Assembly (NCBI GenBank): GCA_030593565.1
Contig: JAUVGW010000010.1
Coordinates: 1-35,158, forward strand
Length of the DNA stretch: 35,158 nucleotides
Direction: 5' to 3'
From: Phycisphaerae bacterium
GTDB taxonomy: Bacteria; Planctomycetota; Phycisphaerae; UBA1845; UTPLA1
How positions within the stretch are numbered: the first letter of the stretch is position 1; every line of letters starts with the position of its first letter. The translations under genes were made by a program, and so were the position numbers. Shown here piece after piece: positions 3,224-35,042 of this stretch. Below the pieces are notes generated by a model. It saw only the letters and a list, made by a program, of their open reading frames with translations. It had not been told where the DNA came from and did no database searches.

Positions 3224-3373
3224 CTAGTGCTTTGTGACAGATCAATTGATGGGTGCCACTGGCGGCTTGTCCGCCAGTGCCGACACTGGCAGCTTACCTG
3301 CTCGCGTACACTGGCGGGCAAGCCGCCAGTGGCACCCTTGGAACCCCTCATTTGAGGTGTCATGGTGCACTAG
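3224..3373. mobile_element. MITE-like element (family B copy 1) with CTAG ends and nested palindrome
   Basis: Left CTAGTGCTTTGTGACA, right TGTCATGGTGCACTAG (imperfect TIR); interior GGGTGCCACTGGCGGCTTG...CAAGCCGCCAGTGGCACCC with inner hairpins CTGGCGG/CCGCCAG. Confidence 0.75.
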
Positions 3374-5322: not shown

Positions 5323-5480
5323 GGTTGTGCCTCCGGCGGTGATATCAGAACGCCAAACCGATCACTGCAACGAGAGTCCCGGAAACAGAAACTTGAGTTT
5401 GGGCCGCGCTATTCCGTTTGTCAACACCTATCGGCGGGCGTTTCCTAGCATGACAGCGCCAAGTATGAGTCGGTTGAGCC

Positions 5481-5592
5481 CAAGAGCCCCCGATCCAGCG
5501 AGCCGGCTCGTCTCGAGCCGGTCTTCCTGTCGGGGGGTTGCCGCAGATACCTGGGAACGTACCCCCCGAACAAGCTCGGGGGCTCTTGGGTG
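5481..5592. repeat. Dispersed nested palindrome, family A copy 2
   Basis: caagagcccccgatccagcgagccggctcgtctcgagccggtcttcctgtcggggggttgcc...accccccgaacaagctcgggggctcttggg. Confidence 0.85.
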
Positions 5593-5725
5593 CTACCGCC
5601 GCCTATCCAGTGCTGACAACCCAGGAAGACATGTCATGGCTTGCGCGCCGTCGTGAGGACTCGCTACGGTTTGACGAGAAACGGTCCGCGCTCTTGGGAA
5701 CACTCAGTGCCGGGACAACCCGATC

Positions 5726-7718: not shown

Positions 7719-7828
7719 TGCCCGTCGATCCTCGCATTGCCAGCGGTCGATCAGTAGGATACGATCGCGATGCTCGATGGTAAACCTGATGCTAACGGTA
7801 CAACGCAAGGTCGTGCTAGCAGCGTCTC

Positions 7829-7940
7829 GAAAGCCCCCAACCCAGCGAGCCGGCTCGTCTCGAGCCGGTCTTTCCGTTGGGTTGCCTTGCGGCATCTGGG
7901 AATGTACCCCCCGAGCAAGCTCGGGGGCTCTTGTGCCCAA
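7829..7940. repeat. Dispersed nested palindrome, family A copy 3
   Basis: cgaaagcccccaacccagcgagccggctcgtctcgagccggtctttccgttgggttgcc...taccccccgagcaagctcgggggctc; lies between divergent tsaB and STAS starts. Confidence 0.85.
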
Positions 7941-7992
7941 TCGCCCGTCCAGCAAGGTATTTCAGGACAAACGCTCAGATCGGAGTGAATCA

Positions 7993-9206: not shown

Positions 9207-9707
9207 ATGATCCGAAGTCTCTTGCTGATTGGTTGTTGCCTTGCTTTGTTGGGAACATCTTGCCCGTCCGGATCGACCCTGACCTGCGCAAACGATCTCG
9301 ACGGTTCCGAGTTCGGCTTCACCATGACCGTCCCGAGCCAGTTCGATTGCACGGGCGTGTTCCCCAATCCCTTCAGCTTGGCACAAGTCCGCTACCTCCA
9401 GTCCTCAACCGACATCGCGATCTCGGTCCAGGTCAACCGAGCCTCGACAGAAGACGACCAAGCCAGCGGGGATGGCATCACGACCGAGGAACTCGCCGAT
9501 CTCGCCACCGCCAACGGCATCACCTTCGAGCGCCAGAAGGTCACCATCGATGCGCTCACCGGCTACGTGGGTGGCGCGACCATGCAAAGCGGAAACCTGT
9601 TGTTCATCACCGTCATCGGCTCAACGGACCAGGACGCCTCGATGCAGACCACCTTGGACGCAATTCTCGAAACCATCCAGTGGGTCCAGCCAACCGAAGG
9701 CGCCTAG
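9207..9707 (+). CDS. Putative lipoprotein/secreted protein (166 aa)
   Basis: MIRSLLLIGCCLALLGTSCPSG (lipobox-like LLGTSC); stop TAG 9705-9707 lies in the CTAG end of the adjacent repeat. Confidence 0.75.
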   Translation: MIRSLLLIGCCLALLGTSCPSGSTLTCANDLDGSEFGFTMTVPSQFDCTGVFPNPFSLAQVRYLQSSTDIAISVQVNRASTEDDQASGDGITTEELADLATANGITFERQKVTIDALTGYVGGATMQSGNLLFITVIGSTDQDASMQTTLDAILETIQWVQPTEGA

Positions 9708-9836
9708 TGCTTTGTCATGCCTACATCATCGGGTGGTACGGGCGTCCCGCCCGTGCGAAATCGGGTTGCCATGGTCTTGCACGGGCGAGACGCCCGTACT
9801 ACCCAACCCACATATTTAGGCGTGACAAAGCACTAG
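9704..9836. mobile_element. MITE-like element (family B copy 2) with 18-bp TIR
   Basis: Left CTAGTGCTTTGTCATGCC, right GGCGTGACAAAGCACTAG (17/18 complementary); interior GGTGGTACGGGCGTCCCGCCCGTGC...GCACGGGCGAGACGCCCGTACTACC. Confidence 0.88.
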
Positions 9837-9868
9837 CGGTTCAGCGCAGAGTCGCGCGAGCAGCCGCT

Positions 9869-9985
9869 CAAGAGCCCCCGACCCAGCGAGCCGGCTCGTC
9901 TCGAGCCGGTCTTCCTGTCCGGGGGTTACCTTACGGCATGTGGGAGCGTACCCCCCGAGCAAGCTCGGGGGCTCTTGGGCACAGT
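9869..9985. repeat. Dispersed nested palindrome, family A copy 4
   Basis: tcaagagcccccgacccagcgagccggctcgtctcgagccggtcttcctgtccgggggtta...taccccccgagcaagctcgggggctcttggg. Confidence 0.87.
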
Positions 9986-10005
9986 CGCCACGAGGATACT
10001 TCGTT

Positions 10006-11489: not shown

Positions 11490-12745
11490 TGGACGTCTAT
11501 CGCGCAAAGTGGTTGCTGCCCGTCACTGCGGACCCGATCGAAAACGGAGCCCTCGCCGTGGAAGGTGACCGCATCGTCGGCGTCGGCACGCCCGCCGATT
11601 TCCCCGGTGCGTCCCCCCGCGACCTGGGGGACAGCATCCTCCTACCCGGTTTCGTCAATGCCCACACACATCTCGAAATGACCTGCTACCACGGCCGCGT
11701 CGCCCCGGCCCCGCTGTGGGACTGGTTCGAGCAAGTCATGGCGTTGCGTCTGAAACCCGGTGCGGTCGAAAACGAACGACGCGCCGTCCACGACGGAGCC
11801 GCGCTGTCCGTCGCCGCAGGCGTCACCTGCATCGGCGACATCTCCCGAACAGGTCTCCACGTCCGCGCGCTGGCAACGTCGCCGATTCGCAAGGTCTGTT
11901 TTCTCGAGTTGATCAGCGGCGCCCATCTGCCGCCGAACGACATCGCCTCGCTCACGGCCATGGCGGACGAAATGGCCACGCTCGCCGAGCCCGATCGCCT
12001 GACCATCGGCATCTCCCCACACACGCTGTACACGGTCACCTGGGACGACCTCGTCGGTTCCGCCCGCCTGACGGCCGACCGCAACCTCCCATTGACCATA
12101 CACGTCCTGGAAACGACCGAGGAAGCCGCATGGCTCCCCACCGGCAAAGGCCGACTCCAGACGCTGCTCGAAGGCTACAAGCTGCCGACCGTATCAGCCT
12201 GTCGCCACGGCCGCGCCGTCGAACAGCTCCAACAGGCCGGCCTGTTGGACCAGCGCCCGCTCCTCGCACACGTCAACTACATCGGGGACGACGAACTCCG
12301 CGATCTCGCCGCCTCGCAGGCCTTGGTCGCATGGTGTCCTCGGTCGCACCGATTTTTCGGCCACGCGGCCCATCGCTGGCGAGACATGCTCCGCGCCGGC
12401 GTCAACGTCTGTCTCGCAACGGACAGCCTCGCCAGCAACGACACATTGTCCATTCTGGACGAGATGCGCCACGTCAGACGGACCACTCCCGATATCGATC
12501 CGGACATCATTCTCGAAATGGGCACGATTCGCGCAGCCGTCGCCCTCCGGCTCGAAAACCGCATCGGTAGCCTGGAAACCGGCAAGCTTGCCGATTTCGT
12601 GACCATTCCATGGAACCAGGGCGGCAGCGAAACCGCTACAGTGAACCTCCTCGATGGCGAACGGTGCGTCGCCGAAACGTGGATCGGCGGTGTCAGCATG
12701 CCCAGAATGCCCCACCGAAGGAGCGTCGCCCCCCGCCGAATGTAG
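11489..12745 (+). CDS. Amidohydrolase family protein (MTA/SAH deaminase or guanine-deaminase-like)
   Basis: LLPGFVNAHTHLEMTCYHG; ISPHTLYTVT; LLAHVNYIGDDEL; CPRSHRFFGH; LATDSLASNDTLSILDEMR; LGSLETGKLADF-like end. Confidence 0.9.
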   Translation: MDVYRAKWLLPVTADPIENGALAVEGDRIVGVGTPADFPGASPRDLGDSILLPGFVNAHTHLEMTCYHGRVAPAPLWDWFEQVMALRLKPGAVENERRAVHDGAALSVAAGVTCIGDISRTGLHVRALATSPIRKVCFLELISGAHLPPNDIASLTAMADEMATLAEPDRLTIGISPHTLYTVTWDDLVGSARLTADRNLPLTIHVLETTEEAAWLPTGKGRLQTLLEGYKLPTVSACRHGRAVEQLQQAGLLDQRPLLAHVNYIGDDELRDLAASQALVAWCPRSHRFFGHAAHRWRDMLRAGVNVCLATDSLASNDTLSILDEMRHVRRTTPDIDPDIILEMGTIRAAVALRLENRIGSLETGKLADFVTIPWNQGGSETATVNLLDGERCVAETWIGGVSMPRMPHRRSVAPRRM

Positions 12746-12822
12746 CGTCGGCCCCCCGTGGCCGACGTGAAGTAGTGAGGGGTACCTCCGCCCATACGTC
12801 GGCCACAGGGGGCCGACGCTAC
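12742..12822. repeat. REPIN-like nested palindrome (two inverted GTAG-headed hairpins)
   Basis: GTAGCGTCGGCCCCCCGTGGCCGACGT ... ACGTCGGCCACAGGGGGCCGACGCTAC, 26/27 complementary; each arm has its own CGTCGGCC/GGCCGACG hairpin. Confidence 0.88.
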
Positions 12823-15155: not shown

Positions 15156-15540
15156 GTGCGAGAATCCTTTCTCGCACTCGCTTCCGCGAGAACCTCCTCC
15201 CACAGCCTGCCAAAACGGATGGGACGCAGGATAGGAATCCTGCCAGCGAGCCGGGCGGTCCTCCGCCCGGTCTACCAACAGCGAGCCGGGCGGTCCTCCG
15301 CCCGGTCTACCGACAGCGAGCCGGGCGGTCCTCCGCCCGGTCTACCGACAGCGAGCCGGGCGGTCCTCCGCCCGGTCTACCAACAGCGAGCCGGGCGGTC
15401 CTCCGCCCGGTCTACCGACTGGGAGTGGGGACGAGATAGGAATCTCGTCCCAGCCAGCAGAAAATTGTGGCACCGGCAACTGTGGCACCGGTGACTGTGC
15501 ACCGGCAACTGTGGCACCGGCGTCCCGCCGGTGGTCCTTC
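15156..15540. repeat. Composite hairpin array in a divergent intergenic region
   Basis: GTGCGAGAA-TCCT-TTCTCGCAC (15156-15177), GCAGGAT-AGGA-ATCCTGC (15226-15243), five 35-bp units (15245-15419), GGGACGAGAT-AGGA-ATCTCGTCCC (15428-15451), then tgtggcaccggcaac half-sites ending in CACCGGCGTCCCGCCGGTG. Confidence 0.92.
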
Positions 15541-18077: not shown

Positions 18078-18210
18078 CTAGAGCATTTCACGTTTGTCTG
18101 TAGCGGCCGACGCCCCTGTCGGCCGTGGATTGTTCGATGATGCTGCGTCCGACACGGGGGTCGGCCGCTACAGTCCATGGGTGCAGCCGACTTTTGCCAC
18201 GGGCTGCTAG
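18078..18210. repeat. CTAG-bounded region with REPIN-like nested palindrome
   Basis: CTGTAGCGGCCGAC (18098-18111) pairs with GTCGGCCGCTACAG (18160-18173); inner hairpin CGGCCGAC-GCCCCT-GTCGGCCG; CTAG at 18078 and 18207. Confidence 0.75.
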
Positions 18211-21360: not shown

Positions 21361-22128
21361 AAAAGGGGGGCAGGCTTACTTTTTCTTTGGATGCTCGCCC
21401 CGCTTCGGTCGCCAAGGAGGGCGAAGACTGGATTGGAGCTTCAAGCGAGCCGCGGTGTGACGTTGCCAGGAGACCTCGCCGTATGGAGCGCCTCGGGCGA
21501 GGCTGAGCCTTACCGCATCAAGCTCCGCTTCGGTTTCCGGTCGATTTACGAATGCCGTCCAAGTCCGCAGCGGAGATACCGGCCAATCCTTCACCGCGAC
21601 CAGCCAGGGGGATTTTACATCTTTGCGACGCCGGCGGACCAGGCTCGACCACAGCCAGTCCTCGGCACGCGCGACCAAGCCTGCCCGCAGGGCGTTTCGC
21701 TCGACGTAACGACAGACAGTCAGGAAATGGCGGTCCTCCTGAATGGGGAAGCTCTTGAAACGCCCCTGATAGACCGGGCCCGTGCCACGCGTATCGCGGT
21801 GGGCGTGCCAACGACGCATGTGTGTGGTGGTCAGCCATTGCATGTAGCGGGACGTCTGGCCGTCGCCTGTCGGCCAGAGCACGAGGTGCCAGTGGTTAGG
21901 CATGAGGCAGTAGCTGATGACGCGCATAGGCGATTTGGCGTGTGCCTCGTCGAGGACCTTCTCGAAGGCAACGTAATCACCGGACTTCTCAAACAGCGGC
22001 AGGCGACTCACACGCCGGTTGAGTACGTGATACACAATCCCGCCGCGGTCGATTCGCAGACGTCTGGCCATCGGGACATGTTACCCCGACCCCAATAACG
22101 TGTCATTAAGTAAGCCTGACCCTCTTTC
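21361..22128. mobile_element. RAYT-containing element bounded by inverted GGGGNCAGGCTTACTT repeats
   Basis: Left AAAAGGGGGGCAGGCTTACTT, right AAGTAAGCCTGACCCTCTTT flank the transposase ORF. Confidence 0.85.
21376..22071 (-). CDS. REP-associated tyrosine transposase (RAYT, Y1/IS200-like HUH family)
   Basis: MARRLRIDRGGIVYHVLNRRVSRLPLFEKSGDYVAFEKVLDEA...ISYCLMPNHWHLVLWPTGDG...GPVYQGRFKSFPIQEDRHFLTVCRYVERNALRAGLVARAEDWLWSS. Confidence 0.95.
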   Translation of the reverse strand: MARRLRIDRGGIVYHVLNRRVSRLPLFEKSGDYVAFEKVLDEAHAKSPMRVISYCLMPNHWHLVLWPTGDGQTSRYMQWLTTTHMRRWHAHRDTRGTGPVYQGRFKSFPIQEDRHFLTVCRYVERNALRAGLVARAEDWLWSSLVRRRRKDVKSPWLVAVKDWPVSPLRTWTAFVNRPETEAELDAVRLSLARGAPYGEVSWQRHTAARLKLQSSLRPPWRPKRGEHPKKK

Positions 22129-22210
22129 TCCCTCTCTCGTGGAATCGCGCAGTAGCGATAGTCGGCGCAGAGTAGGCTCCTGACATCCCAGCTTCACACC
22201 GCCGCTGAGG

Positions 22211-26434: not shown

Positions 26435-26921
26435 GTCAAGAAAGGGGGTCAGGCTTTCTTACCTGCCCATCTTTCTCCCTACGGCTTGATCTTCGCCAAG
26501 GCCTTCTCGATCGTCGCTACCATCACCGCTTCAGGCTGTACTCCGGCGTGGGCAGCAAGGATCTTGCCATCGGGGCCGATGATGTAGCAGCACGGGATGC
26601 CTCCGACGCGATAGGCACTGGCCGCGGCATTGCCGTTCAGCAATTGGCCGTAGGTGTAGCCCTGCTTGGCAATCAGGCCATGGGATTTGCATCGGGCCGT
26701 CGTTCGCGGCAGTTGACACCATAGATCGCGACGGGCTTGTCCTTGTATCGATCGTGCAGCTTCTGGAGGCCGGGCATGGCCATCCGGCACGGACCGCACC
26801 ACGTCGCCCAGAAGTCCAGCAACACGATCTTGCCCCGCAGGCTCTTAAGGCTGACAGACTTGCCGGCGGGATCTTTCATCTCCCAATCCGGCGCATCGCT
26901 TCCGATCGGAAGCAAGCCGCT
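26435..26921 (-). pseudogene. Duplicated 3' fragment of the TlpA-like gene, frameshifted
   Basis: 487-bp block matching 29590-30077 (488 bp) with a 1-nt deletion (aatcaggcca vs aatcagggcca) splitting the frame into ORFs 26479-26802 and 26673-26930. Confidence 0.92.
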
Positions 26922-26928
26922 GGGGGGC

Positions 26929-27194
26929 AAAAGGGGGTCACGCTTACTTTTTCTTTGGATCCTCGCCTAGCTTTTGTCGCCAAGGGGGGCGAAGACTGGA
27001 TTGGAGCTTCAAGCGAGCCGCGGTGTGACGTTGCCAGGAGACCTCGCCATATGGCGCGCCTCGTGCGAGGCTGATCCTTACCGCATCAAGCTCCGCTTCG
27101 GTTTCCGGCCGATTCGCAGAGGTCCGGCCATCGGGGCATGCTACCCCGACGCAAAAAACGCGTCAATAAGTAAGCCTGACCCCCTTTTGACCCC
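26929..27194. mobile_element. Internally deleted, non-autonomous derivative of the RAYT element
   Basis: Shares gcttactttttctttggatcctcgcc...aagactggattggagcttcaagcgagccgcggtgtgacgttgccaggagacctcgcc with 21370-21546, then jumps to the 3' end sequence ccgattcgcagaggtccggccatcgggg...aagtaagcctgacccc. Confidence 0.92.
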
Positions 27195-27501
27195 TTTCGG
27201 ACTTCCCCTTTCTGACTCTGACAGATGTCACAATTGCAGTAGGCGGCCAGACGGATTCCGCGTGCAGCTTCAACCAGCGGGTAGAGGCTGAAGCTATGTC
27301 CAAGATAATGATAGACGCTTTGTGTCGTGTAGCCTTCGGCGGGGATTGGCAAGCGGTCCTTGCCCTCGATGCAATGATGCCGGTACGATGGCGATCCAGG
27401 AAGTGTCATATCGGACCAATTAGCTGCAGGCCGTTCCGTGCCGTTGGAAAGACCGAAACGGAGATCGAGCCTGACGCCATGCATGCGGGAGGACCAACGC
27501 A

Positions 27502-29448: not shown

Positions 29449-29633
29449 CGGCGCATTTGTCGGCGATGCCCGCGGTCTTGTCGCGTCTTTCCCGATGCGC
29501 AGAACGAGTTGCGGCACGCACCGCAAGCTATGTGATCGGAGAGAGATTAATGAGACGAAGGTGGACACTTTGCCTGACGATGACCCCGAGTCAAGAAAGG
29601 GGGTCAGGCTTACTTACCTGCCCATCTTTCTCC

Positions 29634-30842
29634 CTACGGCTTGATCTTCGCCAAGGCCTTCTCGATCGTCGCAATCATCACCGCTTCAGGTTGTACCCCG
29701 GCATGGGCAGCTAGGATCTTGCCATCGGGGCCGATGATGTAACAGCACGGAATGCCTCCGACACGATAGGCACTGGCCGCGGCATTGCCGTTCAGCAATT
29801 GGCCGTAGGTGTAGCCCTGCTTGGCAATCAGGGCCATGGGATTTGCATCGGGCCGTCGTTCGCGGCAGTTGACACCATAGATCGCGACGGGCTTATCCTT
29901 GTATCGATCGTGCAGCTTCTGGAGGCCGGGCATGGCCATCCGGCAGGGACCGCACCACGTCGCCCAGAAGTCCAGCAACACGATCTTGCCCCGCAGGCTC
30001 TTGAGACTGACCGACTTGCCGGCGGGATCTTTCATCTCCCAATCCGGCGCATCACTACCGATGGGCAACAAACCGCTACTCGCGCAGGGCTGTGGCGCCT
30101 CGAAGGCCTTCTTCTGATAGCCCTCCGGACAATCAAGACGGAACATGGCCGCGTCCACATCCAACAGGGGCTTCACATGCGCCGCAGTGAACACCACCCC
30201 ACCTGACGGCGCGGTCATGCCGGGCGGCAACCGCATGGCCACCGGTGTATCCAGCCGACGCAGCAGAAAGTCATCCTTTCCCAGGTATAACCGCAACACG
30301 GCGTCTTGCGGTCCCTTCATCCGTGCGCTGATCACGTGGCAGGGCTTGCCCTCAATCGTCTCCATGCCGTCATACGCAGCCGTCCCGCTGTCGATCGCAT
30401 CTTTGAATGGCGATGCCTCCAGGTATCTAGGCGGGAACAGCGGATTGCCCACGATCAAGCCGGCCTCATTCGGATTGCCCGACGTAAACGTCCTCGTTCC
30501 CTCGTCGATGCTGTACGCATGAACGCCGTCCATCGCAAGCGTGAACCGAGACGGTCCAGACGAACGCGGCGCGGTTATGGTGCCCGTGACGTTGAATCTG
30601 TGTGCGTCGCCGTCGGCCCCCCGCTTCGCCACGATCTTGCCGGCGAATGTGGGGTATCGGCCGACGAGCGCACCCTCCGGCCGGACCGTGGCATCATACG
30701 AGATCGCTCTCAAGGCGGCAGCCGCCGTGTCAGCCTTCTTGAGAATCTCCAATGCCTCGGGCGCATCGCCGGACGCGGCCCACGCGTTCGACGCGTTCGA
30801 CGCCATTCCCAAAATCACAAACACCGCTGCACATCTCGTCAT
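29634..30842 (-). CDS. Secreted TlpA-like thioredoxin-domain protein with DUF2092-like N-terminal domain
   Basis: [70 protein letters not shown]...GGIPCCYIIGPDGKIL. Confidence 0.9.
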   Translation of the reverse strand: MTRCAAVFVILGMASNASNAWAASGDAPEALEILKKADTAAAALRAISYDATVRPEGALVGRYPTFAGKIVAKRGADGDAHRFNVTGTITAPRSSGPSRFTLAMDGVHAYSIDEGTRTFTSGNPNEAGLIVGNPLFPPRYLEASPFKDAIDSGTAAYDGMETIEGKPCHVISARMKGPQDAVLRLYLGKDDFLLRRLDTPVAMRLPPGMTAPSGGVVFTAAHVKPLLDVDAAMFRLDCPEGYQKKAFEAPQPCASSGLLPIGSDAPDWEMKDPAGKSVSLKSLRGKIVLLDFWATWCGPCRMAMPGLQKLHDRYKDKPVAIYGVNCRERRPDANPMALIAKQGYTYGQLLNGNAAASAYRVGGIPCCYIIGPDGKILAAHAGVQPEAVMIATIEKALAKIKP

Positions 30843-33699: not shown

Positions 33700-33797
33700 T
33701 GGTACTCAACCCACTCGCGCTTGACAAAGCAACGCGGCCCGGTCGCCACATGCGGGGTGCACGTCACGATTGTAGATAGTTTCAGCCCCCACGGAAT

Positions 33798-33903
33798 AAG
33801 AGCCCCCGACCTTGGTCGGGGGGTTCGTTCCAGCAGTCATTCGGCTCTCCCCGACAGGAAGTCCGGCTCGAGACGAGCCGGTTCGCGGGGTCAGGGGCTC
33901 ATG
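33798..33903. repeat. Dispersed nested palindrome, family A copy 5 (opposite orientation)
   Basis: aagagcccccgaccttggtcggggggttcg...ccccgacaggaagtccggctcgagacgagccggttcgcggggtcaggggctcatg. Confidence 0.8.
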
Positions 33904-34905: not shown

Positions 34906-35042
34906 CGGGGTAGCATGGATTAACGAAGCCGCCCGGGGTGGCATGAGTTAACGGAGCCGCCCGGGGTGGCATGGGTTAACGAAGCCGCCCGTGGTGGCAT
35001 GGGTTAACGAAGCCGCCCGGGGTGGCATGCAACGCCGTTAAC
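34906..35042. repeat. 28-bp tandem repeat array (4 full units and a partial)
   Basis: Unit cggggtggcatgggttaacgaagccgcc at 34906, 34934, 34962, 34990, partial at 35018. Confidence 0.92.

Follow-up and report, generated by a model that had tools for sequence, protein, structure and literature searches.

The 133-bp element at positions 9704-9836 of the window, by which we mean the whole 35,158-nucleotide stretch of Phycisphaerae bacterium contig JAUVGW010000010.1 analyzed here, combines the ends of one transposon with the palindromes of another repeat system. Its best explanation, to which we give a probability of about 0.85, is a non-autonomous IS630 MITE with a captured REPIN, presumably moved in trans, with captures of this kind made independently many times and each then amplified.

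A 133-bp hairpin element is repeated across the genome

A preliminary description of this DNA had proposed a near-perfect terminal inverted repeat (TIR), matching at 17 of 18 positions, around an ACGGGCG REPIN, and the ends, the REPIN arms and the fold of the element all bear this out. The ends CTAGTGCTTTGTCATGCC (9704-9721) and CTAGTGCTTTGTCACGCC (9819-9836, reverse complement) are identical at 17 of 18 positions. An inverted-repeat search returned the end pair at 23 nt (91%) and the REPIN arms at 9731-9756 and 9779-9804 (92% match), and the entire element folds into a single long hairpin (-92.4 kcal/mol, z = -14.6). Its parts are as follows.

9704-9836, plus strand: composite element, an IS630-type MITE with a REPIN interior; 133 bp, with further 133-bp copies in the genome
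9704-9734, plus strand: shell end like the IS630 right end, CTAGTGCTTTGTCA...CGGGT, a short arm abutting the REP; compared with the IS630 ends in locus L217 and in own-genome fragments C451 and C16
9731-9804, plus strand: REPIN payload, two inverted REPs (GGTGGTACGGGCG NNN CGCCCGTGC) and a spacer, from the inverted-repeat search
9805-9836, minus strand: shell end like the IS630 left end, CTAGTGCTTTGTCAC...GGGTT, a long arm; compared with the IS630 ends in L217 and in own-genome fragment C102
9704-9707, plus strand: left CTAG target or duplication, read from the sequence; its TAG terminates ORF 9207-9707
9833-9836, plus strand: right CTAG target or duplication, read from the sequence; common to the start of the neighboring repeat 9833-9989

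The search for further copies with matching TIRs that the preliminary description had suggested was successful. The end 12-mer CTAGTGCTTTGT has 31 sites in the 5.15-Mb draft genome (461 contigs), against 0 for the reversed control, and complete 133-bp copies are many and lie in both orientations; this excess over the control, together with the recurring complete pairs, excludes chance. A stricter search of the same genome for exact 14-mer ends separated by a gap of 70-100 gave no match, some copies lying outside the gap range and others differing by one base. The element has multiple genome copies and no coding capacity, as is typical of an IS630-family MITE. CTAG is present at both of its ends, and neighboring copies share one CTAG at nine junctions, an arrangement that fits duplication of TA or of CTAG alike.

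The repeat that follows the element is the last of four copies of a nested palindrome family with CTA(A/G)C at its start (1883-2009, 5445-5627, 7792-7945 and 9833-9989), and its first bases are the terminal CTAG of the element. The first copy, also delimited as 1863-2060, does not carry the inner ~30-bp AGCGAGCCGGCTCGTCTCGAGCCGG palindrome in its hairpin loop, and a stretch related to this family lies on the other strand at 33793-33903. Two tandem arrays were also seen in the window, one of 35-bp units of the REP-like palindrome CAGCGAGCCGGGCGGTCCTCCGCCCGGTCTACC (15209-15430) and one of 28-bp units CGGGGTGGCATGGGTTAACGAAGCCGCC (34906-35017).

A second window element carries a different REPIN in a diverged shell

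3224-3373, plus strand: 150-bp relative with a diverged shell and a GTGCCAC-headed CACTGGCGG REPIN, from inverted repeats; partial copies in contigs C56 and C254

The preliminary description had regarded this second element as related to the first and as having the same shell. The element is real and has its own payload, the GTGCCACTGGCGG REPIN, with REP arms at 3251-3279 and 3309-3337 (97% match). Its two partial copies, in C56 and C254, are cut by contig ends, and their readable parts are alike. The claim of a shared shell did not stand: the right end CTAGTGCACCATGACA matches the left end CTAGTGCTTTGTGACA at only 12 of 16 positions, and for this reason we take 3224-3373 to be a relative of the 9704 shell with a diverged shell of its own.

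Each of the two window elements provides an adjoining ORF with its stop codon, the TAG within a terminal CTAG (9705-9707 and 3370-3372); for 3224-3373 this is the right CTAG, which ends a 650-aa minus-strand ORF. Among public elements, runs of at least 200 open codons end at CTAG at 27 of 236 element ends, compared with 57 of 1552 control CTAG sites, an approximately three-fold enrichment. This enrichment was not seen in the small own-genome set.

The shell resembles the two ends of an IS630 insertion sequence

Sequence comparison identifies the shell as the two terminal segments, each ~31-34 bp, of an IS630 (Tc1/mariner) insertion sequence. IS630 remnants in the same genome end in the TIR of the element: at the very start of contig C451, a DDE_3 (IS630) match runs straight into the end CGAGTGCTTTGTCACAGCTTAATGTTCGGGT, so that this fragment encodes the IS630 C-terminus into the TIR. 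With the 81-aa C451 remnant as query, we located an intact IS630 of 1227 bp in Phycisphaerae OFTM250 (L217, 531-1757), to which the remnant is 91% identical. It has CTAGTGCTTTGTCAC at both ends and is thus the transposase gene with the same TIR for which the preliminary description had recommended a search. Its HTH frame (HTH_32) overlaps the DDE_3 frame, and the transposase matches NF033545 at 125 bits (cut-off 100). A second IS630, in casp150-mb.46, is 1234 bp long and has the ends CTAGTGCATTGTCAC, close to the CTAGTGCATCGCCAC shells of our genome. The left (..AGCTAAGAATTAGGGTT) and right (..AGCTTAATTTTAGGGTA) IS ends pair with two different MITE ends respectively, the GGGTT long arm of the MITE being like the left end and the AGG short arm like the right. 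Given this correspondence, the shell amounts to both ends of the IS with the gene missing. Counting against the best explanation, the host draft genome yielded IS630 fragments and no intact IS630.

The payload is REPIN-type and independent of its shell

The ACGGGCG payload consists of two inverted REP palindromes with a spacer and is repeated in the genome, where the REP core palindrome has 54 sites, some of them outside IS630 shells and both single and paired. These REPs also occur inside an unrelated shell of the same genome, TAA-GGGCGAGCGCATGAATAA...TTATTTATGCGCGGTTCC-TAA, and in further contexts; this TAA-flanked shell with its ACGGGC REPIN was seen at L198, L203, L205, L206, L207 and L210. 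REPs outside other elements of their own genome were found in the ACGGGCG contexts, at 12742-12822 and as loose copies in SJ586. The window holds two loose REPINs, one of which has limits identical to those of its shelled counterpart.

12742-12822, plus strand: loose REPIN GTAGCGTCGGCC...GGCCGACGCTAC; CTAGTGCATCGCCAC shells in C123, C139 and C205 carry the identical unit as payload (inverted repeats, locus comparison)
18098-18173, plus strand: loose REPIN GTAGCGGCCGAC...; the IS630-type shell of C147 carries a similar unit as payload (inverted repeats, locus comparison)

Other genomes gave comparable results. In SJ586, GTAGTGGACGAGG has 524 sites, inside and outside IS630 shells, against 0 for the control, and KLAP7 carries one REPIN in two shells, IS630 and CAATACCGTTCAATTAAG. 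The MITE shell of KLAP7 with CAATACCGTTCAATTAAG ends and the GTAGTGGACGAGG REPIN inside was seen at L267, L273, L277, L281 and L291. AGCCG..GCGCTAGC REPINs are loose about as often as they are shelled in the loci read. Near public elements, payload words (13-mers) outside shells are few (16 sites versus 7 in the control, over ~750 kb), so in some genomes the palindrome may sit mainly in the shell.

RAYT/TIRYT signatures, defined as GTAG...CTAC limits or paired GGGGWSAS motifs, the latter being a motif of TIRYT repeats (PMC3733652), are present in 46 of 117 payloads (39%), compared with 15 of 2233 segments (0.7%) drawn at random from the same loci; these counts are not independent, as elements of one genome are related, and 11 genomes carry either signature. 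The 9704 payload starts GGTGGTAC and does not have the 5' GTAG tag of GTAG-class REPs, and is therefore REPIN-type by structure only. Other payloads of its genome do start with GTAG.

21376-22071, minus strand: RAYT/TIRYT-type tyrosine transposase gene flanked by GGGNCAGGCTTACTT inverted repeats (PF01797; NF047646 at E 1.1e-18 and 67.5 bits, below the curated cut-off of 80)

This gene is the one window match among nine to Y1_Tnp in the genome. One ACGGGCG REP, in C63, is separated by ~1 kb from a Y1_Tnp match and does not flank it directly, and a scan of the flanks of own-genome RAYT genes found none directly adjoining. Partial repeats of the ends of the RAYT gene region (21361-22130) occur at 26929-27199 and near 29600 (within 29594-30077). 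The same part of the window contains a direct duplication of ~490 bp (26435-26921 and 29590-30077, 96%, 3.15 kb apart), the second copy of which overlaps the end of a redoxin-like minus-strand ORF (29634-30842).

REPINs and IS630 shells were joined repeatedly

Public genomes were scanned for two 12-bp ends lying 115-175 bp apart. At least 116 stretches fit this pattern, mostly in Planctomycetota (Pirellulaceae, Phycisphaerae), and the matches listed also include records labeled Calothrix, Saprospiraceae, Chitinophagales, Ardenticatenales, Desulfobacteraceae, Thiotrichales and Acidobacteria. The family is patchy in its distribution: the 15-mer end is absent from all 16 family relatives, and the exact paired ends from all 391 further genomes of the phylum that were searched. 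Among the matches listed, we sorted 117 public elements (38 genomes) by payload and obtained 41 classes, of which 27 are hairpins at z < -3. About one-third of the classes are without a clear hairpin; a REPIN is thus common in these shells, not required.

The same design of ends plus palindrome, with different palindromes in ~38 genomes among the matches listed, argues that two separate genome parasites, REPIN and IS630 shell, have repeatedly been joined. The idea of a modular TIR container with exchangeable palindromes, put forward in the preliminary description, holds for the founding of families: one shell type has many payloads, and one payload is found in different shells or loose. It does not extend to routine swapping, as shell and payload amplify together within a family. 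Nor is their co-inheritance, which the preliminary description had set against exchange, without exception, given the independent foundings and two hybrids in our genome. One of these (C48) has two different REP arms, the other (C122) joins an ATCGCC-type end to a different payload, and both indicate that arms or ends can recombine.

Origin and mobility of the composite element

In the mechanism that we propose, the element would retain nothing of the IS but its left and right ends (~31-34 bp), for recognition by an IS630 transposase, with the REPIN in place of the transposase gene. The transposase would move the double-stranded element in trans into CTAG, duplicating TA or CTAG. The REPIN would derive from a separate repeat system normally tied to RAYT/TIRYT (HUH tyrosine) transposases. 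Independent captures would have taken place in many genomes and involved several MITE types, and each combination would then have amplified as a unit. The most likely capture route is template switching, or filler DNA taken up in repair after IS630 excision. Alternatively, a RAYT could insert single-stranded REPINs into the hairpin loops of smaller MITEs, the shell being the target, which would make the palindromes exchangeable. We consider this second route, which is compatible with the best explanation, possible but less likely. The RAYT-type gene in the window and the exact REPIN limits inside shells are in its favor, as is the nested window family, in which three copies have the extra ~30-bp loop palindrome and the 1863-2060 copy does not, so that palindromes appear to come or go at such loops. 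That copy could equally have lost the palindrome, however, and the junction is without a demonstrated fixed RAYT target. Moreover, a search of 24 genomes for empty IS630 shells of 58-98 bp gave none. This speaks against REPINs often inserting into very small shells that already existed, with the caveat that the near-perfect palindromes of empty shells may be unstable.

The palindrome could also be the MITE's own interior, with loose REPINs representing old MITEs whose ends have decayed and no capture involved. Many bacterial MITEs are long hairpins, payload words outside shells are scarce near public elements, and some 'loose' copies are still bordered by a half or decayed shell, all of which would suit this account. 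Against it, one REP core is found in unrelated shells within a single genome, and loose copies stop sharply at the GTAG...CTAC or ATCAGCC...GGCTGAT limits of the payload and have unrelated flanks. Tandem and single REPs also exist, and RAYT-type signatures are strongly enriched; we thus consider an origin from the MITE itself unlikely. Assignment of the ends to the IS5 group, with its 4-bp CTAG duplication, or to another IS is very improbable, since a complete IS630 element has exactly these ends and a fragment in the genome itself encodes the IS630 C-terminus into the TIR, even though the terminal CTAGs are equally compatible with a 4-bp duplication and with TA within CTAG. A captured REPIN between IS630 ends remains the reading that we favor.

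Implications and relation to known systems

REPINs, RAYTs and IS630 MITEs are each already known. To our knowledge, REPINs are generally held to spread solely via their own RAYT; their presence in IS630 shells in dozens of genomes would mean a second, independent spreading route. Many bacterial hairpin MITEs could be IS ends closed around a host palindrome. Two questions can now be tested directly: whether two unrelated transposases can move one element, and by what route a transposon shell acquires its palindrome. As a tentative generalization, RAYT-type repeats, in Planctomycetota and beyond, might generally exist as doubly mobile elements. REPINs would repeatedly enter MITE shells belonging to several IS families, perhaps through RAYT-catalyzed insertion into the MITE hairpin loop, and would then spread by DDE transposases. 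In the literature searched, the coverage of which is incomplete, no paper combined 'REPIN' and 'IS630', and host REPINs nested in IS630 ends across phyla were not found.

The closest relatives by architecture are RUP, NEMIS/Correia, Nezha and similar elements, which we take to be IS630/Tc1-mariner MITEs. Like these, the element is short and non-coding, has IS630-type TIRs and a TA-containing target, can form a long hairpin and is thought to be mobilized in trans. Unlike them, it has as its interior a host REPIN that is also found outside the shell, and its foundings differ in their REPIN. It also resembles ISY100 of the IS630 family, for which 30 bp of each end suffice for transposition by the IS630-family transposase, with insertion at TA and duplication of TA (PMC2170065). 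ISY100 differs in being autonomous, with 947 bp and a single transposase ORF, and the passages of that source consulted describe no REPIN-bearing derivative. With REPINs (Bertels and Rainey 2011, PMC3116915) and GTAG REPs or TIRYT repeats (Di Nocera 2013, PMC3733652), the payloads share paired inverted REPs and a spacer and, as in the latter, many carry GTAG or GGGGWSAS signatures in a setting where the genome has RAYT-type genes. Insertion of IS elements into REPs is known (PMC3733652), and a REPIN inside IS630 ends is the reverse nesting. Unlike the REPINs and TIRYT repeats of those studies, the REPINs described here are bounded by IS630 ends, so that a second transposase could move them.
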